A stretch of DNA of 64,000 nt. Origin: Halarcobacter ebronensis (lineage in GTDB: Bacteria; Campylobacterota; Campylobacteria; Campylobacterales; Arcobacteraceae). The notes beneath the pieces were generated by a model. That model was not told where the DNA came from. It ran no database searches and saw only the letters and a list, made by a program, of their open reading frames with translations. The position numbers and the translations under genes were made by a program. The DNA is taken from NCBI RefSeq assembly GCF_013201825.1, contig NZ_CP053836.1:1612001-1676000 (forward strand), written 5' to 3'. Below, piece after piece: positions 5,311 to 45,431 of the stretch (position 1 is the first letter of the stretch; the number at the start of each line of letters is the position of its first letter).

Positions 5311-6462
5311 TTAGTAATACATTGCAATTAGTTGTGTTAAAATATTAAGTTTGTTTATTTCGACATCAAGTTCTCTCATTTTTTTTGTATTACTTAAAAT
5401 CTCTACATCTTCAATTGCTTTATATCCTGCATTATACTCTTGACTAACGCTATCTAAAAGCTCTTCATAAAGTTTTATATCTTTTGAAGCAATATTTGTA
5501 GAGTTGTTATATTTCCTTATATTCTCAATAATTTTATTATATGCAACAGTCTCATCAATCTCTTTTTGCTCTTTTTGCTTTTGAGATAAAAGGTAATCTA
5601 ATTGATATTTTTCAATCTCATTAATTGAAGAAAAACTTATAGGAATTGAAATCTTAACTCCATAGTTATAACTATTCTCTCCATCTGACTTAGTAAAATC
5701 ATAACCATAGTTTGAAGTTAATGAAAGTTCAGGGAGATAATCACTTTTTTTGATTTTGTAGTTTAGTTTAGAGATATCTTCATTATATTTAGCTAATTTA
5801 ATCTCTCTTGAATCTTTTAAATAGCTATCTAACTCTTTTAATTTCAAATTAGGAATATCAATTTTTTTATAATCAAGTTTGGTATATTGTGAAAGAGTAG
5901 AAAGATACTCTTGTTTTGTTCTTAATTGTTCAGCTAACTCCTCTTCCAAAGCATTTTTTTCCATTATTGTGTCATTTAGGTTTGTAACATCAGTTTGACC
6001 TGCTTTATACTCAGCTTTTATTATCTCTAAACTAATTGTTTTATTCTCAATAGAGAGCTTCTGTTTTTCTATATTCAGATCTGTAAGTTTTAGATTTACT
6101 ACAGTAGTATAAATTGTATTTATATACTCTATAAAAGTTATATTCAAGTCCATCAAATCATATTGTTCTTGAATCTTTGCAACATCTATTGTATTTAAAA
6201 TCCCTCCAAATTTGAATATTGGTTGTTCATAAGAGAGAGAAAATTCTTTTGTATCTTTTTCATCCTTATCTCGAACAATTGAACTATTTAGATTTATATT
6301 AGACAACCAACTCTTTTCATTAATCTTTTTATCCTCTTCTATTATCTTTTTCTTTGTATTATAAATACTCTTTTGTGTTGGAGATAAGATTTCAAGCTCT
6401 TCTGCTTGTATTAAAGAGCCAAAAGAGAAAAGAATTGTTATAAATAAAAGGTTTTTATTCAT
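5311..6462 (-). CDS. TolC-family outer membrane efflux protein
   Basis: This is the outer-membrane and periplasmic-tunnel component of a tripartite exporter. A signal peptide (residues 1 to about 20, ending IQAEE) precedes long amphipathic alpha-helical stretches arranged as two repeats. Typical OEP features are LSYEQPIFKFGG near residue 80, EYKAGQTDVTNLND near 152 and QEYNAGYKAIEDVEILSN near 340. At 383 aa it is shorter than most TolC proteins (420-500). Its ATG overlaps the end of the adaptor gene by eight bases, and it is last in the operon of RND pump, adaptor and OEP. Exported substrate unknown. Confidence 0.88.
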   Translation of the reverse strand: MNKNLLFITILFSFGSLIQAEELEILSPTQKSIYNTKKKIIEEDKKINEKSWLSNINLNSSIVRDKDEKDTKEFSLSYEQPIFKFGGILNTIDVAKIQEQYDLMDLNITFIEYINTIYTTVVNLKLTDLNIEKQKLSIENKTISLEIIKAEYKAGQTDVTNLNDTIMEKNALEEELAEQLRTKQEYLSTLSQYTKLDYKKIDIPNLKLKELDSYLKDSREIKLAKYNEDISKLNYKIKKSDYLPELSLTSNYGYDFTKSDGENSYNYGVKISIPISFSSINEIEKYQLDYLLSQKQKEQKEIDETVAYNKIIENIRKYNNSTNIASKDIKLYEELLDSVSQEYNAGYKAIEDVEILSNTKKMRELDVEINKLNILTQLIAMYY

Positions 6463-7156
6463 TTTTAAACTCCACTTTCAAAGTTTTTCCATACTCTTTA
6501 GAATCTATTAAAACTTCTGTTTTATAAGAAGATATATATGTAGTATCTGTTGTAATATCTATTTTATTTATTTTATAATCACTCTTTACATCATTAATAT
6601 ATATAAGCTTATTTTTTATGTTTTTATAATCTTCAGCATTAACATAAACAGTTAATTTTGATTTTGACATATCATAAACAGTAGCAACCTTTGTTCCAGC
6701 TGTTAAATAATCATATTTATTTACTAAAAACTCTTTTAAATATAGATTATTAATACTTATGGTTTTATCTTTAATACTATTTTTCAAATCTACAATTGAT
6801 ATTTTAAGAGTTGCAATAGAGTTTTTTAGGTCAATTATCTCCAATAGTTTATTATCTTTATCAACTTTACTCATTCCTCTTATTGTTATGTATTTTTCAT
6901 AATTACTTTGCATAATCTCAAGCTTTTGATTATATAGTTTTAACTGCTCTTCATATAGTTTTAGAGTATCAACTTCTAAGCTTTTGTCAATTTTTATAAT
7001 ATCTTTTGTTAATATTTTCATCTCATCATTTTTATCCAAAGATACTATTTCCCCCGAAGTTTTAGCATATATTGTAAACTCATTTACAGGTTCAACTACA
7101 CCTATATAACTCTTTGCATAGATAAAAATTGGTAAAAAAATCAGTAAATATTTCAT
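6455..7156 (-). CDS. Short periplasmic adaptor (membrane-fusion protein) of an RND efflux system
   Basis: Membrane-fusion proteins bridge the RND pump and the outer-membrane channel. A signal peptide ends at IFIYA-KS. Residues about 18-50 (VVEPVNEFTIYAKTSGEIVSLDKND) look like the first half of a lipoyl domain, followed by a coiled-coil hairpin (about 65-130). The second lipoyl half and a beta-barrel follow (LTAGTKVATVYDMSKSKLTVYV). At 233 aa it lacks most of the membrane-proximal domain found in 350-400 aa AcrA-like proteins. It lies one base after the pump gene and overlaps the OEP gene. The role is assigned from position and these features. Confidence 0.75.
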   Translation of the reverse strand: MKYLLIFLPIFIYAKSYIGVVEPVNEFTIYAKTSGEIVSLDKNDEMKILTKDIIKIDKSLEVDTLKLYEEQLKLYNQKLEIMQSNYEKYITIRGMSKVDKDNKLLEIIDLKNSIATLKISIVDLKNSIKDKTISINNLYLKEFLVNKYDYLTAGTKVATVYDMSKSKLTVYVNAEDYKNIKNKLIYINDVKSDYKINKIDITTDTTYISSYKTEVLIDSKEYGKTLKVEFKNE

Positions 7157-7157
7157 A

Positions 7158-10100
7158 TTAATCCTTTAGTTTAAAAAGTACTGCATATAGTGCAGGTAGA
7201 TATATTAAGTTTAGAATTGTTCCCCATAAAAGACCAAATCCTAAAGATATTGCAAGGGGCTGTAAAACAACTCCTTGACCCGATGGATAAAAGATCAAAG
7301 TTGATAATCCTAAAAGTGTAGTTATAGAGGTAATTAAAATAGGTCTTATTCTTAATTTTGCCCTACTATAAAACTCCTCTTTTGTTTTTGTATTTTTTAT
7401 AAAATCAAGCATAATAATACCATCATTGATAACAACTCCTGCAAGTCCCAACATACCAATTAATGAAGGCATCATAATATTTAAACCCATAACAAGGTGC
7501 CCTAATAAAGCACCTATAAGAGAAAAAGGTATTACTGAAATGATAATAAAAGAGATTCTAAAAGATGGGAAGTTAATTAGAAGTACTATAAATATCAAAA
7601 ATATTGATATCATTACTGCAATACTTAACTCATCTTTTAATTGTTCATTTTGCTCAAATTCACCACCTAGTATTATCTCAACACCACTTTTTTCAATCTC
7701 ATTTAATGCAGGTCTTATTTTGTCTAGAGCTTCGCTTGAAGTTAGTTTTTCTAACTCAACATTTGCATAAACTGTTTTTATAATTTTTGAATTCTCTTTT
7801 TCTAAAGTCTCAAAATCTTTTGTAATGGTAAAATCAACAACTTTACTTAACTCTACAAATCTACCGTCTTCAAGAGGTAATTGGAAGTTTTTAAATGAAT
7901 CTAAATTATCTTTTGTTAAAAGCTGTGTTTTTACATCAACAAGACCATCAATACTAACAGCTTTAGTTTGATCTCTTTCCATAAAATAGCTATTTAAAGC
8001 ATTTGCAATATAACTCTCTGTTAACCCTAAAGATTCCCCGTAATTATTGACTTTATATCTATACTCATACTTACCAAGCTCAGCATTATCAGAGATATCA
8101 ACAACTCCATCAATTTTCGCTAACTCCTCTTTTAGTTTTTGTATTGATTCCTGAATCAAATTAGAATCTTTTGAAGAGATTTTAAACTCTAAATCGGTTC
8201 TTACAATACCAATTCTAGTGGTTGTAAGAGTTTTGTCCGTAACATCAAACTTTTTTAATAGAGGTTCAATTAAAGTTTGAACCTCTTTTTGAATCTCAAA
8301 GCTTTTTTTAATTCTTGTTTTTTCTTTTTGTTCAAAATCAAAAGAGAATGTAAAAATAGGTTGTAAATAGTTTTGTATCCAGTTGTTCTCTTTGAAATCT
8401 TCAAGCATCAAACTCATAGTAAAGGCATTTTCTATACTTTCACTATCTCCACTTAAAGAAGAAAAGAGCCCTACTCTATTTTGTAAAGTTTTTAGATTAA
8501 GTTCTTTTTTATTATCTAAAAGTACCTTTTCAAAACTTTTTGCAATCTGTGAAGAGTCTTCTAAAGATTTTGATTCATCAAACTTTACTGAAAGTGTGAT
8601 TCTATCACTATCCATATTTGGAAAAAATTGAAATCTCATACTTGTTGCCATAAAAAAAGTTGCTAAGGGTACAACTATTACAAAAGTTCCAAGAAAAATA
8701 AATTTATTATGAATAAGCAGATGAAGAATTTTCTCATAAAATTTATAAACAGGTGCCCAGTTTAACATCTTCTCTTTTGGTTTTAACATGTGTTTTGCAT
8801 GTATTGGAAGAAATAAAAATGATTCTATTAAAGAGGCAACAATTAATATTGAAACAACAATAGGAATAATACTAATAAAAGAGCCTATTCTTCCAGATAG
8901 ATATAACATTGGTAAAAAAGCAAAAACAGTTGTTAAAGATGCAACTAATACAGGAGGAAGCATCTCAATAGTTCCTTTATAAACAGCATCTTTTATGCTC
9001 TTGCCTTCATCTAAATATCTTTGAATATTTTCACTTACAACAATTGCATCATCAACAATAATACCTATCATAATTAAAACAGCTAAAAGTGATAACATAG
9101 AGAGGCTATAACCTGCATAATAAAAAGTAATTACACCTATAATAAATGAGAAAGGAATACCTAGAACTACAACCACAGATATTCTTGGACTAATAAGTAC
9201 AAACATAGATAATCCAACTAAAACCAATCCAAATGAAATATTTGAGATTACTGTATTTAGTCTCTCTTTAATTGGTTTTGCATCATCATGAATCACTTCA
9301 ATATTTATATTTTTATGATTTTTTTTGAACTCTTGTAGATATTTTTGAACCTCTTTAGAGAGCTCAATTACATTTGCTTGTTCATCTTTGTAAATATTTA
9401 AAGTAATGGAACTTTTACCATTTACCCTTGCAATTGTGTCCTCTTTTGGATAATGAATTTTTATAGTTGCCAAATCAGAAAGATAGAGTTTTTTTGAATT
9501 AACTTCTATTAATGAATTTTCCCAAAAATTATCAACTAATTTTTTATCTGTAGTATTTACATAAACATAGTTCCCTTTTTGCTCAATTGAAGCCACAGGG
9601 TAGATATATGATAGATTTTGAATTTGTGAAATAAGTGATTTACTATTTATTCCATAAGCATTTAGTTTCTCTTCATCTAAATAGATATCAATTTGTAAAT
9701 CAGAATCACCACTTATTTGTATCTCATTTATATGGTTAAATTTGAAAATTTCAGTTTTTAAATCTTTAGAGATATCTAAAAGTTCTTTTTCATCATCGCC
9801 TGTTAGGGCAATTGTTAACAAAGACATTGTTCTTTTTACAACAGATGCAGTTGGTTCATCCATATCGCTAGGAAGGGAACTTCTAACAACACTTATTGCA
9901 TCTTTTACATCATTTATTAAATCATTTGGTTCGTAAGAATCTTCTAAATATAAAACAATACTAAAAGAGCCTGAACGAATAGTTGATTCAATCTCTTTTA
10001 TCCCTACTACGCTCTCAAGTTCATTTTCTATCTCTGTTACAGCAAAAGAGTTCAAACTTGCTGCATTTGCGCCTACATAACTTCCTCTAACAACAATTTG

Positions 10101-10232
10101 GTTTTCTGCAACAATAGGAAAAACCTCTTTAGGTATCTTTATATATGAACTAATCCCCATGAAAATTAAAAAAATTAGTATTGTGTAGTTTAGCCTAGCA
10201 TTATCTAGAAAAAAGTGTATTAATCTCTTCAT
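7158..10232 (-). CDS. RND-family efflux pump (AcrB/HAE1-like inner-membrane transporter)
   Basis: A proton-driven inner-membrane pump of 1024 aa, the usual size. It shows the duplicated RND layout: TM1 near residue 15, a periplasmic porter half, TM2-6 (about 330-480), a second periplasmic half and TM8-12 to the end. The proton-relay acidic pair is present in TM4 as IVDDAIVVSENIQRYLDEG. The equivalent second-half segment reads GVVINDGIIMLDFIKN. It is the first gene of an operon with the adaptor and outer-membrane protein; an upstream gap of about 150 bases separates it from the flagellar cluster. Substrate (drug, bile salt, dye, lipid) is not readable from sequence. Confidence 0.92.
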   Translation of the reverse strand: MKRLIHFFLDNARLNYTILIFLIFMGISSYIKIPKEVFPIVAENQIVVRGSYVGANAASLNSFAVTEIENELESVVGIKEIESTIRSGSFSIVLYLEDSYEPNDLINDVKDAISVVRSSLPSDMDEPTASVVKRTMSLLTIALTGDDEKELLDISKDLKTEIFKFNHINEIQISGDSDLQIDIYLDEEKLNAYGINSKSLISQIQNLSYIYPVASIEQKGNYVYVNTTDKKLVDNFWENSLIEVNSKKLYLSDLATIKIHYPKEDTIARVNGKSSITLNIYKDEQANVIELSKEVQKYLQEFKKNHKNINIEVIHDDAKPIKERLNTVISNISFGLVLVGLSMFVLISPRISVVVVLGIPFSFIIGVITFYYAGYSLSMLSLLAVLIMIGIIVDDAIVVSENIQRYLDEGKSIKDAVYKGTIEMLPPVLVASLTTVFAFLPMLYLSGRIGSFISIIPIVVSILIVASLIESFLFLPIHAKHMLKPKEKMLNWAPVYKFYEKILHLLIHNKFIFLGTFVIVVPLATFFMATSMRFQFFPNMDSDRITLSVKFDESKSLEDSSQIAKSFEKVLLDNKKELNLKTLQNRVGLFSSLSGDSESIENAFTMSLMLEDFKENNWIQNYLQPIFTFSFDFEQKEKTRIKKSFEIQKEVQTLIEPLLKKFDVTDKTLTTTRIGIVRTDLEFKISSKDSNLIQESIQKLKEELAKIDGVVDISDNAELGKYEYRYKVNNYGESLGLTESYIANALNSYFMERDQTKAVSIDGLVDVKTQLLTKDNLDSFKNFQLPLEDGRFVELSKVVDFTITKDFETLEKENSKIIKTVYANVELEKLTSSEALDKIRPALNEIEKSGVEIILGGEFEQNEQLKDELSIAVMISIFLIFIVLLINFPSFRISFIIISVIPFSLIGALLGHLVMGLNIMMPSLIGMLGLAGVVINDGIIMLDFIKNTKTKEEFYSRAKLRIRPILITSITTLLGLSTLIFYPSGQGVVLQPLAISLGFGLLWGTILNLIYLPALYAVLFKLKD

Positions 10233-10379: not shown

Positions 10380-11240
10380 TTATGCATAACCATACAAGGA
10401 TGAAGATTTATCAGATAAATTATTTACATACGTATTAAATTCATTTGAGTTATTTTCATTATTGAACATCTTCATAATATTACTAAAATTACTTAATTTT
10501 AGATCTTCTTCATCATCTTGTGTAGTATTTTTTATAACATCAAATAGCTTTTTTATATTCTCTATAGAATCGTTATTACTAGCTTTAGAATTGGAACTAT
10601 TTGACTCACTAGTATTACTAATTCCATAATAAGCTTCCATCTCTTCTTTTGATACAACTCCATCTTTGTTTGTATCCATAATATCGTAATCTTCTTCATT
10701 TTCGCTACTACTTGATGAAGATGAACCTCCTGGAGCAACTGGAGCTGTTGAACCTGCGGCAATAGAATCAACAGCAGCAGTTAATTCATCTGTGGTAACT
10801 GAACCATCACCATCACTATCTAATGCAGTAAATTCTTCACTGGTTAATAAAGATAGTTCATCTTCGCTAAGAATTGAATCTTTGTTTGTATCATAGGCAG
10901 AGATTAATTCTGAAACAAAATCACTACTGTTTGTGTTATTGGTTTGAGTGGGTGAATCTGGCATCTGCAAACCAAGATCTGTCAATAAAGAAGCAAACTC
11001 TTCTGATGTAGGCATTTCACTATATTCTGAAAGCTTACTATCTATTGCTTTTGTTATTTCACTTTGAGTTAATAAACCATCTGAATCGCTATCCATTAAG
11101 CTGAATATATCATCTTCTAAATCAACTTCATCAATACTTAAAGCACCATCACTATTGGTATCATTCCGTCTTAAAGAGTTATCAGAGATTATATTGAGTA
11201 GAGATAGCAAGTCTGAATTTTGCGAAGTTATAGTATTCAT
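10380..11240 (-). CDS. Five-loop EF-hand calcium-binding protein downstream of fliD
   Basis: A 286-residue acidic protein with five complete 12-residue EF-hand loops, each starting with D and ending with E: DTNSDGALSIDE (about 27-38), DSDSDGLLTQSE (about 50-61), DTNKDSILSEDE, DSDGDGSVTTDE and DTNKDGVVSKEE. A Ser-rich linker separates loops four and five. There is no signal peptide or membrane helix. The start is taken as the ATG at 11240, because AAGGAG lies just upstream, inside an alternative frame start at 11255. It follows fliD at 59 bases on the same strand, so it is probably the last gene of the hook operon. Calcium binding is strongly suggested by the loops. A flagellar role or export through the flagellum is inference from position. 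Confidence 0.8.
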   Translation of the reverse strand: MNTITSQNSDLLSLLNIISDNSLRRNDTNSDGALSIDEVDLEDDIFSLMDSDSDGLLTQSEITKAIDSKLSEYSEMPTSEEFASLLTDLGLQMPDSPTQTNNTNSSDFVSELISAYDTNKDSILSEDELSLLTSEEFTALDSDGDGSVTTDELTAAVDSIAAGSTAPVAPGGSSSSSSSENEEDYDIMDTNKDGVVSKEEMEAYYGISNTSESNSSNSKASNNDSIENIKKLFDVIKNTTQDDEEDLKLSNFSNIMKMFNNENNSNEFNTYVNNLSDKSSSLYGYA

Positions 11241-11299
11241 AATATTCTCCTTCAATTATGAAATTCTATAACTTTTTAGTAAATAAAGGGTAACACTAA

Positions 11300-12643
11300 T
11301 TAGTTATCGTTATTGTTACTGTCCATTAATATTTTTAGAGATTGAAATGCATTTTCCATTTGAGTAATAATTACAGTATATGCAGCAAATTGTTCTGACA
11401 ATTGTTGATATTTAGTATCAATTCTAGTCTCTTCCTCTTCTTTATTATCATTCAAATCATCAATACTACTTTGCACTTTATTTAAAAAAGTTGTTAAAGT
11501 ACCAGAACTACTGTCTAAATCATCAAGATAGGTACTTAACTTAGTACCAATTCCTTCTTTCTCTGCATACCCAACAAATAACTCTTTTAAATCATCATAG
11601 TTATTTGTAACTGCTTCTGCAAGTTCAGAAGCATCAATTTGCATGTATCCACTTGTATCAAAAGAAATTCCATAAACAAAAATATTTTCTTCATCTTCTA
11701 ATCCATATGAATCAAAAAACATATTTTTAATATCACTTAAAATTGATTTTATTGCGCTTGAATCTGAAATCAAAACATTTCCATCATCATCTGCCGTAGT
11801 AGAAGAACTAACCAAATCAACTAATTCATTATAAACTGTTGCCATTTTTGAAATTTGTTCAGTAATGTATGAATCATCATTTGAAATTGATATAGAAGAT
11901 TTTCCTTCATCAACAGCTGTAATAATAAGTCCATTATTCATTGTAATTTTATTTGAAGACATATTATAACTAATACCGTCAATAGTACCAATAAAGTTTT
12001 GTGATGTTTGAATATGACTTTCATCTGCTCCAAATCCTAGATCAATATCTGTCTGAGAAATTGTTACTGCATTTTCTAATCCACTTTCTGAACTTTTAAT
12101 AACTAATCTATAAGAGTTGTCACTAACTTTTTCTAAAGAAGCATCAAGAGCACTTGTATAATTCAAATTAGTAACTAAATCTTCATATGTCATTTCATCT
12201 GTTGTGTCAAAAGTATAACTATCTTCACCAACAGTAATTGTTAATTTTCCAGCCCCAATATATGAAGTTGGATCACTAATTAAGCTAGATTGATAAACAT
12301 CTTTAGTTGCCAGTTGTGTAACATTGACTACAATTGTCCCAGGATTTAAATTTGATGTGTCAGTAGCATCAAAACTTGCTGAAGTACCTGTTGTAGAAGC
12401 AGTAACTTGGTCAAATACATTAGTATCGGATGTATATAAATCAAATCCTTCAACTACAGTCAGTAACTCTGCAATTTTATCTGCAATCTTCTCTGAAGCA
12501 GTTAATTCTGCTTCTTTCTTTTCAATACTGTCATCAATAGGGTCTACATATGCTGTAGTTTCAGCTGTTTTTAGCTTTTCAATTAACTCATCATTTAATT
12601 CTAAACTGCCTGAACTTCCAAGTCCTAAAATTCCTTCAGCCAT
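11300..12643 (-). CDS. fliD: Flagellar filament cap protein FliD (HAP2)
   Basis: FliD caps the growing filament and folds incoming flagellin. The N-terminus has GILGLGSSGSLELNDELIEKLKTAE, matching the FliD pattern of an early leucine/glycine segment and a basic helix. The middle carries the FliD N/C modules (NPGTIVVNVTQLATKDVYQSS; ENAVTISQTDIDLGFG). The C-terminus ends in a coiled coil (RIDTKYQQLSEQFAAYTVIITQMENAFQSL) typical of the D0/D1 region. The length of 447 aa is normal. AAAGGATATATT precedes the ATG. It lies 13 bases after flgK. Confidence 0.9.
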   Translation of the reverse strand: MAEGILGLGSSGSLELNDELIEKLKTAETTAYVDPIDDSIEKKEAELTASEKIADKIAELLTVVEGFDLYTSDTNVFDQVTASTTGTSASFDATDTSNLNPGTIVVNVTQLATKDVYQSSLISDPTSYIGAGKLTITVGEDSYTFDTTDEMTYEDLVTNLNYTSALDASLEKVSDNSYRLVIKSSESGLENAVTISQTDIDLGFGADESHIQTSQNFIGTIDGISYNMSSNKITMNNGLIITAVDEGKSSISISNDDSYITEQISKMATVYNELVDLVSSSTTADDDGNVLISDSSAIKSILSDIKNMFFDSYGLEDEENIFVYGISFDTSGYMQIDASELAEAVTNNYDDLKELFVGYAEKEGIGTKLSTYLDDLDSSSGTLTTFLNKVQSSIDDLNDNKEEEETRIDTKYQQLSEQFAAYTVIITQMENAFQSLKILMDSNNNDN

Positions 12644-12656
12644 AATATATCCTTTA

Positions 12657-14255
12657 CTACATATTTAAAATAGTTTGTAACATTTCATCAACTGCTGTAA
12701 TTACTTTAGCATTTGCTTCATATGCAGCTTGATATTGCATCAAACTAATCATCTCTGAATCTGGGTCAACTTTTGTTAAATTTTCATAAGTTGTTAACAT
12801 TGAGTTTAAAACTGCATCTTGAGACTCAGAATTAAAAGAATTATCTTCAACATCTGTTGAAACTCTAACTAATAACTTTTTATAAAATTCATCTAATGAT
12901 ACTGAACTATCATTACCTATTGATAAATTATCATTCCATTGTACTTGTGAAATAGCTTCTAAATCACCCGCTGTTAAAGAAAAAGTACTATTTTTTACAT
13001 AACTTAAAGTATTTACGCTTGTACCTGTAAATAGTGTTGTACTATTATCTTTAGAATAAGCTTCAACAAATGCCTTTACAAAATCATTTAAGGCACGCTT
13101 ATATGATAATATTTCAGATGTTTCACTTGTCAAATTTTCAGATAAAGATTTCATTGAACCACCTGATAAATTTAACTCATTATTATAAACTGCAACAGAC
13201 ACATGGTCCAAGGATTCTTGTGAAATTGCATCTTTTTCTAATGTTGCATTATTCACAGTAATTTTTATATCAAAGGCATTATCTTCACCACCTTCAACTC
13301 CTTTAATTACAAGATTATTAGAAGAGTCGAGATATGCCTCAACTGAATTAAAAGCAGGATTACTATTTATTGCATCAACAATTTGTTGCTTTAATTCATT
13401 TTCTGGTAATCCACTAACATTTGCACTTAATGTTAATGTTGTTGTATTATTAAGTGAAATAGTAATTGTATCTCCATCAGATACATTTGAATCTTCTAAT
13501 TCTGTAGTTGTATATATGTCTTTTTGTTGAATATACTCTTCATTAATAGATAATTTATGAAAACTAGAAGTATTAAATATTACATTTTCACCTCCAATTT
13601 TTAATGTATAATTACCATTTGCTGTACTTACATCAATATCTCCATAATCTGATAACTGACTTTCCAAAGCATCTCTCTTATCAAGAAGATCATTTGTTTC
13701 ACCTGTTTCAACCATTTTTCTATTTAAATGAACAATTTGTTCTAATATTGAATTTACTTCGTCAACTTGATCCTTTAGTAAAGACAAATTATCATCTTGT
13801 AACTCTTCTAAATCAGCATATACACCTTTTATTCCAGTTATAACCATTTGAGCTTGTGTATCAACTTCTGCTTGATAGGTTGATGATGTGGGTTCTCCTC
13901 TTAAACTCTCAACAGCAGTAAAGAAATTATTTAAAGTTACTGAAAATCCACTTGTTGCAGTCTCTTTAAAAATCATCTCTGCACTACTTAATGTACTATT
14001 TTGTTGAGTATAATAAGTTGAATAACTATTTTGATTCAAAATTTGACTATACAAATATTGACTAGTAGTTCTTATCACACCATCAAAGGATACACCATTC
14101 CCTATATTATTCTCTAATGAATTTAATTCACTAGTTTGGATAACTCTTTTTTTATATCCTTTTGTATCCTCATTTGCAATATTATTTGAAGTAACATCAA
14201 CCCCATATCTTGATGTTTTAAGCCCAGTTTGAGCTATATATAATGAATCCATCAT
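12657..14255 (-). CDS. flgK: Flagellar hook-filament junction protein FlgK (HAP1)
   Basis: FlgK is the first junction protein between hook and filament. The N-terminus (MMDSLYIAQTGLKTSRYGVD then VTSNNIANEDTKGYKKR) is the flagellar rod/hook D0 signature with the SNNIAN motif. The C-terminus (SLMQYQAAYEANAKVITAVDEMLQ) is the matching D0 helix. The LNRKMVETGETNDLLDKRDALESQLS segment near residue 175 is specific to FlgK. The 532 aa length is typical. Start at the first of two adjacent ATGs, with AAGGAG seven bases ahead. Position: flgL upstream, fliD downstream. Confidence 0.93.
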   Translation of the reverse strand: MMDSLYIAQTGLKTSRYGVDVTSNNIANEDTKGYKKRVIQTSELNSLENNIGNGVSFDGVIRTTSQYLYSQILNQNSYSTYYTQQNSTLSSAEMIFKETATSGFSVTLNNFFTAVESLRGEPTSSTYQAEVDTQAQMVITGIKGVYADLEELQDDNLSLLKDQVDEVNSILEQIVHLNRKMVETGETNDLLDKRDALESQLSDYGDIDVSTANGNYTLKIGGENVIFNTSSFHKLSINEEYIQQKDIYTTTELEDSNVSDGDTITISLNNTTTLTLSANVSGLPENELKQQIVDAINSNPAFNSVEAYLDSSNNLVIKGVEGGEDNAFDIKITVNNATLEKDAISQESLDHVSVAVYNNELNLSGGSMKSLSENLTSETSEILSYKRALNDFVKAFVEAYSKDNSTTLFTGTSVNTLSYVKNSTFSLTAGDLEAISQVQWNDNLSIGNDSSVSLDEFYKKLLVRVSTDVEDNSFNSESQDAVLNSMLTTYENLTKVDPDSEMISLMQYQAAYEANAKVITAVDEMLQTILNM

Positions 14256-14315
14256 AATGAACTCCTTAATATTTTAAAAGAAGAAAAATAATAAATCATA
14301 ATCATTTACCTTTCC

Positions 14316-15683
14316 TTAACTTAAATATTTAACCAAAGACATACTATTTAATCTACTAATCGTAGCATACATTGCTGTATAAGTACTTTCTAAAGCTTTA
14401 GCTTCAATTGCAAGAGAAGTTAAATCTGCAGAGGCATATTTTTCTTCTAAGATTTTTAGATTTGTTACTTTACTAGAAACAATATTTGCATATGCATTAA
14501 TTGTACTTGTTCTTGTTCCAACTAAAGAATGAGCAATGTTTTGTGATTCATATGCATCATTCATTTTATCAATAACATTAGTAAGAACATTTCTTTGCTC
14601 AACTTTAGTAATCGTATTTCCATTATTATCTACAAGTCTTAAAGCATTAATTGCATCAGTTAAATCATCAAAAACAGAATGATATACATCAAGATCAACT
14701 GTTGATGTGTTTGTTGTAGTAATAGTTCCATCACCATTATCAGTAACAGTAATTGGTGTTGTTGTAGTATCACCATTCATATACAAGCCATCAAAAGTTC
14801 CGTCATTGTCTGTATCCATCAATTTCCATTCGTTTTCATCTTTATCTAATATAATTTCATTTGTAGTGAAGGTAAAAGACTCCCCATCACTAGTAATATT
14901 AAGTTCAGTTGATGGAGAATCATTTGTTATTGTTATTGTACCATCACCATTATCTACAATAGATATTGGAGTAGTTGATGTATCACCATTCATGTATAAA
15001 CCATCAAAAGTACCATCAGCAGGAATGGTAGTATCAACAAATTGCCAACTATTCCCATCTTGATCAACAATAGTCTCAGTTGAATCTACAGTGAAAGTTG
15101 AACCATATTCATATTTTGCTCCACTACTTACTTCATTATTAACATAATAAAAAGCCTTAATGCCATTAATTCCTTGTGCTGTGTATGTTGCATCTTCAAC
15201 ATTAACTTTTCTTGTCGAATTATCACTTTGATATGATATTACTCCATTTGCATCTTTTATAAAAGGTATCGTACTTGTATTTACGCCTGAAAAAATATAT
15301 TGTCCATTTACATTAGTATTTGCAAGAGCTAAAAGAGAATTTCTATAATCCTCTAATTGAGTAGCTATAATTTCTCTTTGACTTTGAGCAGTAGTATCAT
15401 TATTTGCTTCAAGTAAATCACCTATAACTGATTGTGTAGTATTTTTAACTTCTGCCATAGTATCATCACTAATAGTATTAAAAGCTTGACTAAGTGTAAT
15501 ATATTGTGAAATTGCAGTATAGCCATTTTTATCATTTTGAATGTTTAATATTTGACTATATAGAACTGCATTATCACTTCCATACTCTAAAGCCTCTTTT
15601 GTACCTAAAGCAGTATTAACTTTAGCATTTCTCTCATCTAGTAATGAAAGATTGTATTTTATTTGAGAAATAGACTTAACCAT
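14316..15683 (-). CDS. flgL: Flagellar hook-filament junction protein FlgL (HAP3) with internal repeat
   Basis: FlgL is the second junction protein. The flagellin-like N-terminus (SISQIKYNLSLLDERNAKVNTA, D0/D1) and C-terminus (YASADLTSLAIEAKALESTY then TAMYATISRLNSMSLVKYLS) flank a variable middle. That middle carries two related segments of about 48 residues (about 204-252 and 277-323). Both contain GTFDGLYMNGDT then STTPI or TTTPI, and DNGDGTIT. The second also has DTDNDGTFD, a calcium-loop-like pattern. The length of 455 aa exceeds the usual 300-400 because of this insert. TTAGGAG precedes the ATG. Between flgE and flgK on the same strand. Confidence 0.9.
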   Translation of the reverse strand: MVKSISQIKYNLSLLDERNAKVNTALGTKEALEYGSDNAVLYSQILNIQNDKNGYTAISQYITLSQAFNTISDDTMAEVKNTTQSVIGDLLEANNDTTAQSQREIIATQLEDYRNSLLALANTNVNGQYIFSGVNTSTIPFIKDANGVISYQSDNSTRKVNVEDATYTAQGINGIKAFYYVNNEVSSGAKYEYGSTFTVDSTETIVDQDGNSWQFVDTTIPADGTFDGLYMNGDTSTTPISIVDNGDGTITITNDSPSTELNITSDGESFTFTTNEIILDKDENEWKLMDTDNDGTFDGLYMNGDTTTTPITVTDNGDGTITTTNTSTVDLDVYHSVFDDLTDAINALRLVDNNGNTITKVEQRNVLTNVIDKMNDAYESQNIAHSLVGTRTSTINAYANIVSSKVTNLKILEEKYASADLTSLAIEAKALESTYTAMYATISRLNSMSLVKYLS

Positions 15684-15699
15684 ACTACACTCCTAATTA

Positions 15700-17745
15700 T
15701 TATCTCTTTAATTGAATTAAAGTTGTTAACAACTCATCAGCTGTTGTAATTGATTTTGAGTTTGCTTCAAAAGCTCTTTGAAAAACCATAAGATTAACCA
15801 AACTTTCACTTAAATCCGCTTTACTTAATTCTAATGTTTTAGCACTAATTAATGTAGAGTTATCATTATTGATTGTATAAATTGGTTTACCACTTGATGT
15901 AGTCTCTGCTAAAAGGTTATTACCAATAGCTTTTAACTCAATATTATTAGCAAATTGTGCAATTGCAATTTGACCAACAACATAATCCACTCCATCTTGA
16001 GTAATTGTAATAAGACCTGTTTCATCCACATTAAACTCACCAAATGATTCATCTGTAAGACCTAATGAATCAAGTTTTAACTGTAATGAAGTTTTTGAAG
16101 TCTCTTGATCAACATTAGAGATTATTTGCATAAATTCTGCACCAGCACCTGTATTCCCACTAAGTTCTAAATCTTTTTCTTTAGTATAAGTTGTTGCCGT
16201 TGAATCATCTGTATAACTAATAATACCAGTGAATTCTTCACCTGTTGTTTTTGACTCAATAACAAGTTTTCCATTGATTGTTTTTGCTTCAACAAGTAAA
16301 CTTAAATCTGGATCTAGATTTATTTGAGAGATTAAATCTGTAACTGCTTCTTTATATGAAACCTCTGTTCCTGTTACACCTTGAGTACTTGTTACAGTAT
16401 GAACAATTCCATCAATTGTCATACTAAAACTTATTGTATCTCCTGTACCAGCAGTACCATCATCCCATGTTATAAGGTTTCCATCATCATCTGAGACAAT
16501 ATCATTTTGTTCATAAACATCATATTGTTTACCAGCAACAGCATTTCTTAATGCATTCATTGCTGACTCAACAGCACCTTCGCCTGTTCCAGCAACGGCT
16601 TCAGTTATATTTACTTTTGTACCTTCAAGTTCAGTCGAATTGGAAAATTCAGAAACATCTCCTATAAGAAAATCTTCTCCAGGATTGATTGAATCTATTC
16701 TAATTCTTCCTTCTAAAACATCTGCAATATTTGTTGATGGGTTATTTGATGCATCTACAGTATAAGCTACTAATCCTGTAATATCTGAAATCTTATCAGC
16801 TAAGGCTTTATAAGTTGCCGCCCTACTTGCTAAAATATTATACTCTTCATCAGATAAGTCTGCTGCACCATCTCCATCTAAATCTAAACCAGTCATCCCA
16901 GCATCATATAGTGCTTCAAGTTCTGCTCTTAATTCTGTATTAGCAGTTGTATTAACATAATCCACTGGATATTTATTTCCATCAATATATACATAAATTT
17001 GTTGTTTCTCACCATTTAAAGAACTACTTGTAAGACTTGGAAAATCAATTACACTTGATTGTGCAATTGATGGAGAAGAAGTTGCATTTGGATTTTCTGC
17101 ATAATCTTCTAAAGCACTAGTATATTTAGTAATAAGTTGCTCAATATCAGAGATTTTAGATGATTTTGATTTTATACCTGAACCTGTAAGCTCTAAAGAG
17201 TCACTTTTTGCACTAGTTTGATAATCTGTCATTTTTGCAGCATATGTCTCAATTTTATTTGAAAATTTTATAATCTGATTACCAGCAATTTCTGTAAAAT
17301 TATCATTAAAAGAGGTCCAGTTTTTATTTGTAGAGATAACATCACTTGTTGGGTCTAATGTACTCATAGCCCAACCTTGTACTTCATAGCCATTAGCATC
17401 TTGTAAAGTACCATTATCTCCCATTCTTAGATTTCCAGCTCTTGTATAGTAAGTTTCAGAAGTTCCTGTTGCATTTACATTTGATACAACGAAAAATCCA
17501 TCCCCATTTAGGGCCAAGTCATAATTTGAGCCAGTAAGATTTAAGCTTCCTTGAACATACTGTTTCTCAGCACTTGTAACAGTTGCCCCTTTACCTATAC
17601 TGTCTTGATACATCAAATCAGCAAAAGAAACCCTAGAAGCTTTATAACCAACAGTGTTAACGTTTGCTATATTATTAGACTCATTATCAATTGCAGCTTG
17701 AGCTGCCGATAATCCTGAAATTCCAGTCCATAATGCACCAATCAT
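15700..17745 (-). CDS. flgE: Flagellar hook protein FlgE
   Basis: FlgE polymerises into the hook. The N-terminus (GALWTGISGLSAAQAAIDNE then SNNIANVNTVGYKASRVSF) contains the SNNIAN motif of axial proteins. The next segment has the QGSLNLTGSNYDLALNGDGFF pattern of FlgE/FlgF/FlgG. The C-terminus (LVNLMVFQRAFEANSKSITT then ADELLTTLIQLKR) is the D0 helix. The length of 681 aa is long, as in Campylobacterota hooks with extra outer domains. Inside the insert is an EF-hand-like loop, DLDGDGAADLSDEE (about residues 286-299). AAAAGGA precedes the ATG. Between flgD and flgL. Confidence 0.93.
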   Translation of the reverse strand: MIGALWTGISGLSAAQAAIDNESNNIANVNTVGYKASRVSFADLMYQDSIGKGATVTSAEKQYVQGSLNLTGSNYDLALNGDGFFVVSNVNATGTSETYYTRAGNLRMGDNGTLQDANGYEVQGWAMSTLDPTSDVISTNKNWTSFNDNFTEIAGNQIIKFSNKIETYAAKMTDYQTSAKSDSLELTGSGIKSKSSKISDIEQLITKYTSALEDYAENPNATSSPSIAQSSVIDFPSLTSSSLNGEKQQIYVYIDGNKYPVDYVNTTANTELRAELEALYDAGMTGLDLDGDGAADLSDEEYNILASRAATYKALADKISDITGLVAYTVDASNNPSTNIADVLEGRIRIDSINPGEDFLIGDVSEFSNSTELEGTKVNITEAVAGTGEGAVESAMNALRNAVAGKQYDVYEQNDIVSDDDGNLITWDDGTAGTGDTISFSMTIDGIVHTVTSTQGVTGTEVSYKEAVTDLISQINLDPDLSLLVEAKTINGKLVIESKTTGEEFTGIISYTDDSTATTYTKEKDLELSGNTGAGAEFMQIISNVDQETSKTSLQLKLDSLGLTDESFGEFNVDETGLITITQDGVDYVVGQIAIAQFANNIELKAIGNNLLAETTSSGKPIYTINNDNSTLISAKTLELSKADLSESLVNLMVFQRAFEANSKSITTADELLTTLIQLKR

Positions 17746-17831: not shown

Positions 17832-18596
17832 TCAATATATTTTGGTAATTCCAGAATATAACAAAGTATCAGCCTCTTCATTATATGTAGTTGCACTATT
17901 GATACTATATGACATATTTAAATCACCTGTTGAATTAATAGAACTATTACCACCATTTACATAAACAACCATCTGATATTTTCCACTAGCATTCTCTGCC
18001 ATAGAAGCACTAACACCACTAATTGCATTTATCTCTTCTGCTAATTGATCATAAGTTTTTCCACTAGTTTCAATTGTATGTGTTTCACCTTTAGAATCAG
18101 TTAAAGTTATACTATCTTCACTATTTGTTGAATCTAAAGAGTCATTTGAATTCTCTGTCTCTGCAAAGGTATAAACATCATAATAACCAGTAATTTCATA
18201 GGCAGTAAGATAAACTTTTCCATCACTACCTTCTACAGAAGATACTTTATACTGTTTTACATTTCCACTATCATCTTTCTCTCCGTTTTCAACAATATTA
18301 CCTATTAAAGAGGCAGCATTAGATAATGCATTTTGTTGAAAAGTATCAGTTAATGTACCCATTGCATCTACAGTTGCCAAGTTAGCTTCTAAAGTAGACA
18401 ATTGCAATTGAGAATCTAACATTGACGAAGAATCAACAGGATTTGTTGGATCTTGTAATGATAACTCTTTTAGCATTAGTTTAATAAAATCTTCACTTTG
18501 TAATCCATCTGCACTAACACTTGTTGTATACGTATTACCATAAGCATCAGTTCCAGTTGAAGTTGTTACTCCACTAGTTGCACTAGTTGTTGCCAT
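17832..18596 (-). CDS. flgD: Flagellar hook capping protein FlgD
   Basis: FlgD is the scaffold that caps the hook during assembly. The N-terminal signature is clear: DFIKLMLKELSLQDPTNPVD followed by SSSMLDSQLQLSTLEA, then a SLIGNIVE segment. The C-terminal half is the variable FlgD beta domain (KVYLTAYEITGYYDVYTF). The length of 254 aa is normal. GAAAGGAG lies before the ATG. It is the first gene of the hook operon running flgD, flgE, flgL, flgK, fliD and the EF-hand gene, and sits 91 bases after the sensor kinase gene. Confidence 0.9.
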   Translation of the reverse strand: MATTSATSGVTTSTGTDAYGNTYTTSVSADGLQSEDFIKLMLKELSLQDPTNPVDSSSMLDSQLQLSTLEANLATVDAMGTLTDTFQQNALSNAASLIGNIVENGEKDDSGNVKQYKVSSVEGSDGKVYLTAYEITGYYDVYTFAETENSNDSLDSTNSEDSITLTDSKGETHTIETSGKTYDQLAEEINAISGVSASMAENASGKYQMVVYVNGGNSSINSTGDLNMSYSINSATTYNEEADTLLYSGITKIY

Positions 18597-18649: not shown

Positions 18650-18655
18650 ATTATA
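18650..18655 (-). promoter_or_regulatory. Sigma-70 type -10 box ahead of flgD
   Basis: On the minus strand the sequence TGCTAATATAATTC gives a perfect TATAAT (18655-18650), with AT-rich periodic sequence upstream instead of a -35 box. This predicts a leader of about 45 bases before the flgD ATG. I see no GG/GC pair spaced like a sigma-54 promoter. This fits published reports that Arcobacter lacks the usual flagellar sigma hierarchy. Confidence 0.5.
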
Positions 18656-18687
18656 TTAGCATAAAGTAAATAAAAAGTAACAGAATT

Positions 18688-19971
18688 TTAAAATTGTATT
18701 TTAAAGATATGATAGTCGTCACTATAGTAATAGTAGAGATTAAAGCCATGATGTTTTATAATATTATTAGTAATATATAGTCCTAATCCTAAACCCTTAT
18801 CAATTGACTCATACTCTCGATTAAAAGGTTTTATATATTCGTCAAAATTTTTCTTAAGTGGTTTTCCATGATTTTTGATTATTAAATTATCACTATTTAT
18901 AACAATTTCAGGTTTCCCTTCTGTTTTATATTTCATCGCATTGTCTATTAAATTTTTTAAAGAGATTGCAAAAAGGTCATAATCAACCTCAATTTTTGTT
19001 AGATTTGAGTAAATTTCAACTTGTGATTTATCAATTAATAGAATATCTAAAGATTGATCTAGTAAGTCAACAATCCTATACTCTTTTTTGTTTAGATCTA
19101 TTTTTCCTGAAGTAATCTCTTCAAGTTTTACAAACTCTTCTAATAAAAATTCTAATCTTAAAAAAGCTCTTTGCAAAATAGATTTTTTTCTTCCCTCTTC
19201 TAATGTATCAGATATTAATTTACCCTTTGTTATTGGTGTTTTTAATTCATGCAAAATATTTCTCATAAAAAGTTTTCTAGAGTTATTTAAATCTCTAATT
19301 TTTTCTATTGCATTATTAAACTCATTTGAAACTTCTGATATTTCATCTTTTCCTTTCATACTGGTGTCTATATTTAAATCACCTTCATAAAATCTATTTA
19401 TCTCATTTTTAAGTTTTATAAGTGGTTTGAATTTTTTATATAAAAAATAATAAAACCATAAAAGGGTTATATCAATTGCTATAAGCATCATCAACCAAAA
19501 AAGTTTATGGTCAGACTCAGAAGATTCATCAATTAATAATATAGAAGGAGGTTTCATTTTCTCTAAAAAATCTAACTCTTTTGGGATAAAAGGAGGAGGA
19601 AGCTCTGTTCCAATTGGCATTGGTTTTGGATTAAAATATACGTATAGCTTATTATCTAATCTAAAAAGCTCAATAGGTTCATCCTTTTCAAACTCTATTT
19701 TTATAGGATTTAATGATTTAATCTCTTCAATTTTTTTATCTGATAATTTCATACTAAATGTAGATATTTTATCATTTATACTATTCTTATCTATGCCTTT
19801 CCTTAAATCGATTTCAACAATTTTGAAAACTGAAAAATAACGCTTAAATTTTAATGCTTTAAAACTATTATTATCAAGATTAAATTGTACATAAATTAAA
19901 AAATTTATTAGAACAAAAACAGAAAAGAAAAAGAGGGTTATTTGAAAAATTATTGAATTTTTCTTACTCAT
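18688..19971 (-). CDS. Sensor histidine kinase, ArsS-like
   Basis: An inner-membrane two-component sensor of 427 aa. TM1 is at about residues 8-28, a periplasmic loop of some 130 residues follows, and TM2 is near 160-178 (LFWLMMLIAIDITLLWFYY). A HAMP-like stretch precedes the HisKA H-box (LFMRNILHELKTPITKGKL). The ATP-binding domain shows SLKNLIDNAMKYK and GLGLGLYI. The RNILHELKTPITKG sequence resembles Campylobacterota ArsS/CosS-type kinases. It overlaps its response regulator gene by eight bases. Signal unknown. Proximity to flgD invites, but does not prove, a role in motility. Confidence 0.9.
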   Translation of the reverse strand: MSKKNSIIFQITLFFFSVFVLINFLIYVQFNLDNNSFKALKFKRYFSVFKIVEIDLRKGIDKNSINDKISTFSMKLSDKKIEEIKSLNPIKIEFEKDEPIELFRLDNKLYVYFNPKPMPIGTELPPPFIPKELDFLEKMKPPSILLIDESSESDHKLFWLMMLIAIDITLLWFYYFLYKKFKPLIKLKNEINRFYEGDLNIDTSMKGKDEISEVSNEFNNAIEKIRDLNNSRKLFMRNILHELKTPITKGKLISDTLEEGRKKSILQRAFLRLEFLLEEFVKLEEITSGKIDLNKKEYRIVDLLDQSLDILLIDKSQVEIYSNLTKIEVDYDLFAISLKNLIDNAMKYKTEGKPEIVINSDNLIIKNHGKPLKKNFDEYIKPFNREYESIDKGLGLGLYITNNIIKHHGFNLYYYYSDDYHIFKIQF

Positions 19972-20647
19972 TAACCAATTTATAACCTACTCCTCTAATA
20001 GAAAGTATATATTTAGGTTTTTTAGAGTTCTCTTCAATTTTATTTCTTACTCTACCTATAAGAACATCAATGCTTTTATAACTGCTCTCATATTTTATTG
20101 ATTCAACATTTGAGAGCAGCTCTTCTCTTGAAACAACAAAACCTGCTCTTTTAATCATATATGCAAGTATATGATACTCAGCATTAGTTAGGTTTAAAAG
20201 CTCATCTTCTTTTCTAATTTCCATTCTACTTTCATCATGAATAAAAACTTGTCTCTTTTGTACCTCTTCTTTTTTTGTAATATTCAAATTACATCTACGA
20301 AGAATTGATTTAATTCTAAAAATAAGTTCTTGAGTATCATATGGTTTTGGTAGGAAATCATCAGCACCATAACTAAAACATGCAATTTTATCGCCAATAT
20401 TTGATCTTGCACTAGAAATAATAATTGGAATATCATTATGAGCTCGTATCATTTTACACACTTCAATGCCGTCTATTTCAGGTAAAGATAAATCTAAAAT
20501 AACTAAATCATATTTTTTAACTCGCAGGGCAGAAATACCCAATTCAGGGGATTCGTAATTTGTAACTTTTATATTATATTGATCTAAATAATCCACTAGA
20601 ATTTCTGCTAATTCTAGGTCGTCTTCAATCATTAAAATCTCTATCAC
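19964..20647 (-). CDS. OmpR-family response regulator
   Basis: The DNA-binding partner of the downstream kinase. The receiver domain (1-115) has the acidic pair in MIEDDLELAE, the phosphoacceptor in LVILDLSLPEIDG (D about 51), IIISSAR and the lysine in DDFLPKPYD. The winged-helix output domain (130-225) ends with the typical KPKYILSIRGVGYKLV. The start is a GTG at 20647 with AAGGA five bases upstream. RR then HK order, with an eight-base overlap, indicates co-expression. Targets unknown. Confidence 0.93.
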   Translation of the reverse strand: MIEILMIEDDLELAEILVDYLDQYNIKVTNYESPELGISALRVKKYDLVILDLSLPEIDGIEVCKMIRAHNDIPIIISSARSNIGDKIACFSYGADDFLPKPYDTQELIFRIKSILRRCNLNITKKEEVQKRQVFIHDESRMEIRKEDELLNLTNAEYHILAYMIKRAGFVVSREELLSNVESIKYESSYKSIDVLIGRVRNKIEENSKKPKYILSIRGVGYKLVNE

Positions 20648-20713
20648 ATCTATCCTTTACAATAAAGAATAATTTTAATAAACAAAGTTTAATAAAAAGT
20701 AACAAAATACAAT

Positions 20714-44492: not shown

Positions 44493-45431
44493 TTACTTTC
44501 TAATATCTGGACCGTCAATTTTCATACCATTTGACATATATGCCATGAAAAATAGTAGTTCTTTCATATCTCTAGAGTCATCTTTTGGTGGTACTTGACC
44601 TTGATCTTTAATACACCCTGACATTCTTCTCTCTAAAGTTCCTAAACCATCATTATTTTTATCACTAGCCGCCCATTTAAGTCTATATACAGGGAAATGA
44701 GTTACTTGACCTAAAAATGGAGATAAACTTTCATTTCTAACTCTTTGTCCAGCACCAATAACATGGCACTCTGCACAATTTAGTTTTAAGTATCCTCTTT
44801 GTGTATAGTAATATTCTTTACCTCTTTCATAAGCCTCTGCTGCAGTTGCACTATCAATTTTTACATCAATAACTTTTTCAGCATCTTGTGCTGATTGAGC
44901 AAAAAAAGCTTCCAAATGAGCAATAGGTCCTTTTGATGTTTTCCAAGGTTTTTCTCCATTTGCAACCAAACACTCATTAATTGCAACTGTTAGAGTTTGC
45001 ACATCCTTTTTTGTTTCATCAAAATATGGATACATTACACCTGCTTGTGATGGATCAGGGAAACAGTCTTTAAATGATTTTCCATTTGCAAAAGGTTTTT
45101 CATATAATGCTTCACCTTTTTCTACAAACTCTTCATATGGAGGCATCTCTTTGATTTCATCATAAGACATTCTTCCATTTTTAGAAAATGAGTAGTTACC
45201 CTTTGAAAAGTCCTCAAATTTTAATCCAGACATAATATTATTTTCCAACTCATCATCTGTTGAGTATGGGAAAAAAGTATTTCTGTTTTTCAATGGATCT
45301 TCAAATTTTGCTTCAAAATATTTTACTAAAGCAATTCTATCTTTTTCAGCTTGCGCATTAAAATCTGCTGCATTTAATGTATAAGCAGTTAACGCAACCA
45401 ATGCAGTTGTCTTTGCAATATTTAATAACAT
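44493..45431 (-). CDS. soxA: SoxA, c-type cytochrome subunit of SoxAX
   Basis: SoxAX oxidatively joins thiosulfate to the SoxY cysteine. A signal peptide (to about residue 21) precedes the cytochrome. A single heme motif C219-A-E-C-H223 lies in the C-terminal half, followed by a GQRVRNESLSPFLGQVTHFP segment. C273, in MSGCIKDQG, occupies the place of the unusual cysteine heme ligand of SoxA. The N-terminal heme of diheme SoxA is absent (only KDCFPDPSQAG there), so this is the monoheme form. Length 312 aa. It lies between soxZ and the SoxK-like gene. Confidence 0.94.
   Translation of the reverse strand: MLLNIAKTTALVALTAYTLNAADFNAQAEKDRIALVKYFEAKFEDPLKNRNTFFPYSTDDELENNIMSGLKFEDFSKGNYSFSKNGRMSYDEIKEMPPYEEFVEKGEALYEKPFANGKSFKDCFPDPSQAGVMYPYFDETKKDVQTLTVAINECLVANGEKPWKTSKGPIAHLEAFFAQSAQDAEKVIDVKIDSATAAEAYERGKEYYYTQRGYLKLNCAECHVIGAGQRVRNESLSPFLGQVTHFPVYRLKWAASDKNNDGLGTLERRMSGCIKDQGQVPPKDDSRDMKELLFFMAYMSNGMKIDGPDIRK

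Follow-up and report, generated by a model that had tools for sequence, protein, structure and literature searches.

A hook gene cluster linked to a two-component system and an EF-hand gene in Halarcobacter ebronensis

Results

The flagellar hook locus described here lies in a 64,000-nucleotide stretch of the Halarcobacter ebronensis genome (NZ_CP053836.1, positions 1,612,001 to 1,676,000; hereafter the window, to which coordinates refer unless a locus handle precedes them). Here, ftsK is followed in the same direction, on the minus strand, by genes for an OmpR-type response regulator and an ArsS-family sensor histidine kinase, then flgD, flgE, flgL, flgK and fliD, and lastly a gene for an EF-hand protein; from the regulator to the EF-hand gene, neighbours either overlap or are separated by at most 91 base pairs (bp). 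Calcium-type loops in FlgE, FlgL and the EF-hand protein, reported in the initial annotation, drew attention to the locus, but the more interesting feature is the hook operon itself, which appears to be controlled by a sensor.

The regulator (19964..20647; this and all following features of the hook locus are on the minus strand) contains a receiver and a Trans_reg_C domain (PF00072, 90.5 bits, and PF00486, 74 bits, both above cut-off), and the kinase (18688..19971) scores 367 bits with NCBIfam NF038389, for which the cut-off is 250. The hook genes encode the hook cap FlgD (17832..18596; PF03963, 38.4 bits, cut-off 27), the hook protein FlgE (15700..17745), the hook-filament junction proteins FlgL (14316..15683), with two repeats in an insert, and FlgK (12657..14255; TIGR02492, 236.1 bits, cut-off 170.75), and the filament cap FliD (11300..12643; PF07195, 84.6 bits, and PF02465, 37.3 bits, both above cut-off). 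FlgE passes the cut-off of the FlgE/F/G subfamily model TIGR03506 (194.9 bits, cut-off 70.25) and stays below that of the epsilon-type FlgE model TIGR02489 (168.3 versus 412.85 bits), while FlgL falls narrowly below the cut-off of TIGR02550 (119.7 versus 127.2 bits). No other place in the genome, a single 3.17-Mb contig in which one FlhA was found, appears to encode FlgE, FlgK or FlgL. Indeed, genome-wide matches to PF06429 comprise FlgE and FlgK of the locus and three shorter frames elsewhere with the sizes of FlgG, FlgF and FlgC, those to Flagellin_N comprise FlgL of the locus and three flagellin-like frames elsewhere, and FlgL used as a query against its own genome matches only itself. Since no other FlgE, FlgK or FlgL was found, the locus probably encodes the working hook set.

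Seventeen hook clusters of this type, the window included, were collected, and named records with similar clusters include Poseidonibacter ostreae and Aliarcobacter. Orthologues of the kinase are present in 22 of 104 Arcobacteraceae genomes, 21 of them with E ≤1.1e-73 and the last, in G129, with E 2.1e-60 for a kinase that is truncated at a contig end. The group is followed in the ranking by a match from G024 (E 5.6e-63, 39% across the kinase domain), which is a member of another pair. In all 22 genomes the kinase is clustered with the hook module, the EF-hand gene or both (hook module only in 4, both in 12, EF-hand gene only in 6). The regulator stands beside the hook genes in 17/17 clusters; it is cut by the contig end in G129 and shortened in G080, where the kinase was unrecognised. 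A general ArsRS-like pair that lies at the locus by accident was rejected as an explanation, because every orthologue found has the hook module or the EF-hand gene in its cluster (22/22).

When the intergenic gaps were compared between 14 clusters (13 in the case of the regulator), a direct repeat, GTTAC-N6-TTTAC, stood out ahead of the regulator and flgD, with a TATAAT-like hexamer some 10 bp downstream of it. A weaker repeat lies ahead of flgE in some clusters, and the EF-hand gene of the window is also preceded by the box. In the window, the box and the -10-like hexamer read GTTACTTTTTATTAAA-N10-TAAAAT before the regulator (20672..20703; 2 mismatches), GTTACTTTTTATTTAC-N10-TATAAT before flgD (18650..18681) and GTTACCCTTTATTTAC-N10-TAGAAT before the EF-hand gene (11263..11294). 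A direct repeat near -35 at a fixed spacing from a -10-like hexamer is the pattern of an OmpR-type target promoter, and the box conforms to it, more weakly at flgD; it is thus a candidate binding site of the regulator.

Within 160 bp upstream, and with up to 3 mismatches, the box is found at 18/18 EF-hand genes of kinase clusters, at 16/21 regulators and at 15/16 flgD (the flgD of G134 being left out), and at 10/169 other open reading frames (ORFs) of at least 150 amino acids in 14 of the loci, where five of the ten are flgE genes of the clusters. The 10-bp spacing to the hexamer (TAnnnT for the EF-hand genes) is present at 16/18 EF-hand genes and 18/21 regulators. A strict search of 37 genomes, 22 with the kinase and 15 others, with the pattern read backwards as control, gave 46 sites in the kinase genomes, 37 of them at the kinase locus (counted as rows), versus 8 for the backward pattern; one further strict site precedes a distant EF-hand gene of G129. 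The 15 other genomes have 6 sites versus 6 backward, two of the six before EF-hand genes, and the 3.17-Mb genome of the window has two strict copies, both at the hook locus. The excess of strict sites is essentially confined to the kinase-hook locus and EF-hand genes. With 3 mismatches allowed, the window has 9 sites and shuffles have 8.6, and with 2 mismatches the genome has 41 sites versus 31 for the reversed control; only strict or positioned matches carry weight. A scan for sigma-70 promoters and terminators gave no excess over shuffles (81 versus 78.4 and 2 versus 2.8, respectively).

The EF-hand protein (10383..11240, within an ORF listed as 10380-11255; PF13499, 63.3 bits, cut-off 30) has 286 amino acids from its likely start, which we place at the ATG at 11240 behind GGAG rather than at the upstream TTG. 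Its five loops of 12 residues, DTNSDGALSIDE (11127..11162), DSDSDGLLTQSE (11058..11093), DTNKDSILSEDE (10857..10892), DSDGDGSVTTDE (10785..10820) and DTNKDGVVSKEE (10641..10676), have Asp or Asn at positions 1, 3 and 5, Glu at position 12 and, in four of them, Gly at position 6. The initial annotation had described five complete loops; all five are present, and the word complete is slightly generous because loop 3 has Ser, not Gly, at position 6. No second EF-hand protein was found in the genome with PF13499. The XopAW (NF041410) and lanmodulin (NF053806) families were rejected as assignments, with 55 bits versus a cut-off of 120 and 33.9 bits versus a cut-off of 135, respectively.

A family model of the EF-hand protein has matches in 35/104 Arcobacteraceae genomes and only partial ones outside the family (best E 4e-15). 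Among the 26 EF-hand genes whose neighbourhood was read, the protein has five loops in 13, three in 10, which form one branch, four in 2 and two in G134 (overlapping matches counted once). Left out of the 26 were fragments at contig ends (G130), four-loop proteins of another kind (G096 C34, G098 C24, G099, G088 and the second G107 match), the second contig copy in G098, and related proteins without EF loops (G021, G032, G045, G125 and G030, as well as the second matches of G096 (C39), G080, G128, G129 and G131). Eighteen of the 26 genes cluster with the same regulator-kinase pair and 8 lie elsewhere; the order is regulator-kinase-hook-EF in 11, regulator-kinase-EF in 5, EF-regulator-kinase in 1, and regulator-kinase-EF with divergent hook genes in 1 (G134). 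Kinase-linked EF-hand genes occur in both deep branches of the EF-hand tree, so that linkage to the kinase seems to predate linkage to the hook or to be independent of it. The gene arrangement thus argues that the EF-hand protein goes with the two-component system rather than with the hook.

In the hydropathy profiles of 10/10 orthologues, no signal- or membrane-like hydrophobic segment is present (highest 19-residue mean 0.89). The earlier statement that all three loop-bearing proteins would face seawater has no basis for this one, which lacks such a segment and whose gene tracks the two-component system. It is quite unlikely that the EF-hand protein is instead a substrate of flagellar type III export, acting as a hook-length ruler, a chaperone-like factor or a secreted effector comparable to XopAW. 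Such a role would fit the position of the gene at the close of the hook gene run, the Ser/Asn-rich N-terminus without a hydrophobic signal, and XopAW as the best NCBIfam match (E 9.5e-15), but the XopAW score is far below cut-off, a hook-length domain is absent among the Pfam matches, and in 6 genomes the gene adjoins the two-component system where hook genes are absent. Most likely, the EF-hand protein is a cytoplasmic partner of the sensor system, predicted to bind calcium, and not a part of the hook.

Twelve loci with other, related pairs were read, in which the kinase is 34–42% and the regulator 48–53% identical to those of the window. At 7 of the 12 (among L178-L184 and L193-L197), the pair is preceded by a partner of 192–273 amino acids that resembles the EF-hand protein and has no EF loops. 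Calcium is therefore not essential to the role of the partner; a small partner protein seems to be recurrent in such pairs, with calcium binding an option within the partner group. Also near such pairs are proteins of 478–531 amino acids with a signal-like N-terminus and two C-terminal EF loops (L178:2092-3687, L193:7672-9153 and L194:8140-9576), and the two of these that were scanned (L178 and L193) contain Lcl_C domains. In G026, a gene for a sigma-54 factor (L054:7388-8659) adjoins the EF-kinase-regulator genes, in a group from which, according to a published survey, RpoN has been lost (PMC9321776).

Of the 69 window ORFs of at least 90 amino acids, 4 contain the strict motif D-x-[DN]-x-D-G, three of them at the hook locus; the only further one (44493-45431) has the D-x-N-x-D-G form DKNNDG at residue 257. 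When the proteins are shuffled, one or more strict motifs arise in 4.9% (FlgE), 3.2% (FlgL) and 2.8% (EF-hand protein) of cases; the real EF-hand protein has four. The reported observation of calcium-type loops was, overall, mostly right, and the FlgL loop DTDNDGTFD and the FlgE loop, DLDGDGAADLSDEE starting at residue 288, are where they had been described.

The FlgL loop (residues 290-298, 14790..14816) lies in the second of two repeats of ~53 residues, of which 29/53 are identical in an ungapped comparison; its counterpart in the first repeat is interrupted (DTTIPADGTFD). The insert that holds the repeats covers approximately residues 186-330. With the pattern D.[DNS].[DNS]G..[DNSTE], the loop is kept in 15/17 cluster-type FlgL versus 0/16 other Arcobacteraceae FlgL examined (Fisher p 1.5e-7, a value that is too small because the sequences are related). 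The flanking residues are invariant in six aligned cluster FlgL, and the cluster FlgL form one clade with support 100/99. The structure model has the FlgL fold, with FlgL 5ziz as the best Foldseek match (E 3.0e-11), and places the loop between strands 285-289 and 299-302, with predicted local distance difference test (pLDDT) values of 81 and 72 for the two ten-residue blocks. The site is thus conserved and specific to this type of FlgL, which on this point supports the initial annotation, and the FlgL insert holds the only credible conserved calcium-type site that our sequence comparisons and models point to within the flagellum.

The FlgE loop DLDGDGAADLSD (residues 288-299, 16849..16884) is borderline by itself (4.9% of shuffles) and therefore needs conservation, which it lacks. 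The strict motif is present in 5/17 cluster orthologues, the strict or a relaxed motif in 8/17, and the strict motif in 4/9 of the other FlgE set, where one of the four is a second copy in G014 that groups with the cluster type. (The anchor pattern used for FlgE missed G107 and G080; read individually, both are without the motif.) The site lies in a variable linker ahead of a conserved helix and has a different sequence in six Aliarcobacter-type clusters. In the model it lies between two helices, with pLDDT values of 55 and 59 for the blocks, and Foldseek found no match for this model at E ≤0.001, with phage tails and antibodies heading the list. A conserved calcium site in FlgE was rejected on these counts, and a lack of conservation in relatives is what the initial annotation had itself named as refuting its reading; the loop reads as a sporadic gain in a variable linker. 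The additional FlgE of G014 has 989 amino acids and is encoded between genes for a P-type cation ATPase and an ion channel (L057:6592-9561).

These results also bear on whether the acidic loops of FlgE and FlgL are mere Asp, Gly and Asn drift in variable segments, with no metal bound, which we regard as somewhat unlikely. Drift would agree with an expectation of 0.05 FlgE motifs per shuffle, with the loss or degradation of the FlgE loop in most relatives, and with the statement, in parts of PMC3123361, that single-base changes favour such motifs, but not with the retention of the FlgL loop in 15/17 cluster FlgL or with the invariant flanking residues in the six aligned. The model of the initial annotation, in which FlgE, FlgL and the EF-hand protein are one secreted, calcium-dependent set that stiffens or assembles hook and junction, is in turn very unlikely. 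Three motif-bearing proteins in one gene run and the conserved FlgL loop would suit it, but most relatives have a degraded FlgE loop or none, and it is strict in under half of either FlgE set. In addition, the EF-hand gene accompanies the two-component system with or without hook genes, standing next to the kinase at a locus that lacks hook genes in 6 genomes, and its product has no hydrophobic export signal. The EF-hand gene is also missing beside 5/17 hook clusters, and the protein is therefore not needed for the hook. A common calcium explanation is correct at most for FlgL.

Other genes recur around the clusters. An RND efflux operon lies 3' of the EF-hand gene in the window (5311-10232) and likewise in G010 and G008, and also follows the EF-hand gene of G127 (L155:8398-13346), which is apart from the kinase. 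A gene for a protein of 121–126 amino acids, weakly FlgD-like by blastp, stands beside flgL or flgK in 12/17 clusters (for example L046:10059-10424), with none seen in the clusters of the window, G002, G010, G014 and G080; a Pfam scan of one such protein gave no match. The hook cluster of G080 (L150) looks decayed, having the shortened regulator, the unrecognised kinase and unrelated ORFs between flgK, flgL and flgE.

Discussion

We consider it probable that the locus is a sensor-controlled flgD-flgE-flgL-flgK-fliD operon with the EF-hand protein as a cytoplasmic partner, a calcium-type site in FlgL and a sporadic loop in FlgE. The five genes would form an operon for hook and junction, controlled by a two-component system of its own, in which the ArsS-family kinase in the inner membrane would pass a phosphoryl group to the OmpR-type regulator. 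The regulator would then bind GTTAC-N6-TTTAC, whose place and spacing at the mapped sites put it over the -35 region, and thereby activate its own gene, the hook genes and the EF-hand gene. The EF-hand protein, given its linkage and the lack of a hydrophobic export signal, may serve as a calcium sensor or buffer that passes calcium status into the kinase-regulator system. Calcium bound at the conserved FlgL insert, if this is exposed, would lock a small beta domain at the hook-filament junction.

Several of these elements resemble known systems, from which they also differ. The kinase and regulator have the make-up of an ArsS/OmpR-type pair, judged by NF038389 and by the two Pfam domains, and ArsRS of Helicobacter is their counterpart; here, however, hook genes and an EF-hand gene share the cluster with the pair. 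A two-component system that acts on hook genes, as proposed here, would parallel the RpoN/FlgRS/FliA control of Campylobacterota, but with a regulator of the OmpR type and a -35 box. The FlgL model also matches chains A and B of the Campylobacter hook-filament junction-cap complex (PDB 9gsx; E 1.5e-8 and 8.4e-7), the sequence listing of which calls chain A 'Flagellin', whereas, among the FlgL examined, the cluster type alone was found to have the loop-bearing insert.

The calcium signalling of Pseudomonas, with the CarSR system and EfhP (PMC9132961, PMC11559002), offers a parallel: at the present locus, too, an EF-hand protein would take part in bacterial calcium signalling, but it contains as many as five loops, lacks a hydrophobic signal and shares its gene cluster with hook genes. 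The FlgL loop, D-x-D-x-D-G-x-x-D modelled between two strands, is similar to the Dx[DN]xDG strand-loop-strand calcium sites that parts of PMC3123361 describe outside EF-hands, with a bias to cell-surface and secreted proteins. In contrast to those cases, calcium binding by FlgL is a prediction, and the string 'flagell' has 0 occurrences in the main text of that paper. Titles and abstracts of the open-access literature that was searched contain no report of a calcium site in the hook or FlgL, or of this operon.

Several observations weigh against sensor control of the operon as drawn here. Gene adjacency is no proof of regulation. The box counts are partly circular, because the consensus was derived from the gaps of the same 13–14 loci and the EF-hand gap of the window; their independent part is the upstream regions of the other 17 EF-hand genes, which are mutually related. 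The 10-bp spacing is present at only 5/16 flgD, the remainder having 9 bp, 12 bp or no hexamer, the flgE gap of the window has no clear box, and in two of the kinase genomes, G129 and G134, all strict sites lie away from the kinase. Moreover, 6/8 EF-hand genes away from the regulator-kinase pair also have the box, again 10 bp from the hexamer; another regulator may therefore read it, and exclusive control of all EF-hand genes by the pair was rejected. With respect to the calcium part, the hook clusters of G002 and G014 are in genomes without any EF match, those of G129, G080 and G096 have no EF-hand gene beside them, and relatives of the EF-hand protein without EF loops stand beside a second, similar kinase. 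Both structure models were built from shallow alignments, of 6 and 7 rows, with a mean pLDDT of 68.5 for FlgL and 52 for FlgE.

A stronger form of the proposal, which we hold to be unlikely, is a calcium-tuned alternative hook, in which the pair would read calcium via its EF-hand partner and switch on a hook set with a calcium-locked FlgL junction domain. If true, one ion would set both when the hook is built and how the junction holds, and the pair would include the first dedicated flagellar regulator identified in Arcobacteraceae, as far as the literature searched shows.

For the sensor-controlled operon itself, the setting is the control of flagella in Arcobacter: a published survey reports that Arcobacter species have lost RpoN, FlgRS and FliA and that their flagellar loci neither contain nor adjoin a gene for a DNA-binding regulator, and it states that a tractable system was lacking at the time (PMC9321776). 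The locus supplies a context for the EF-hand protein and leaves the FlgL insert, the main place where calcium within the flagellum is plausible, as one good candidate for a calcium site at the junction. For the cluster-bearing part of the family, the regulator, its DNA box and its target genes can be put forward by name, and the question of flagellar control thereby becomes testable in these Arcobacteraceae.

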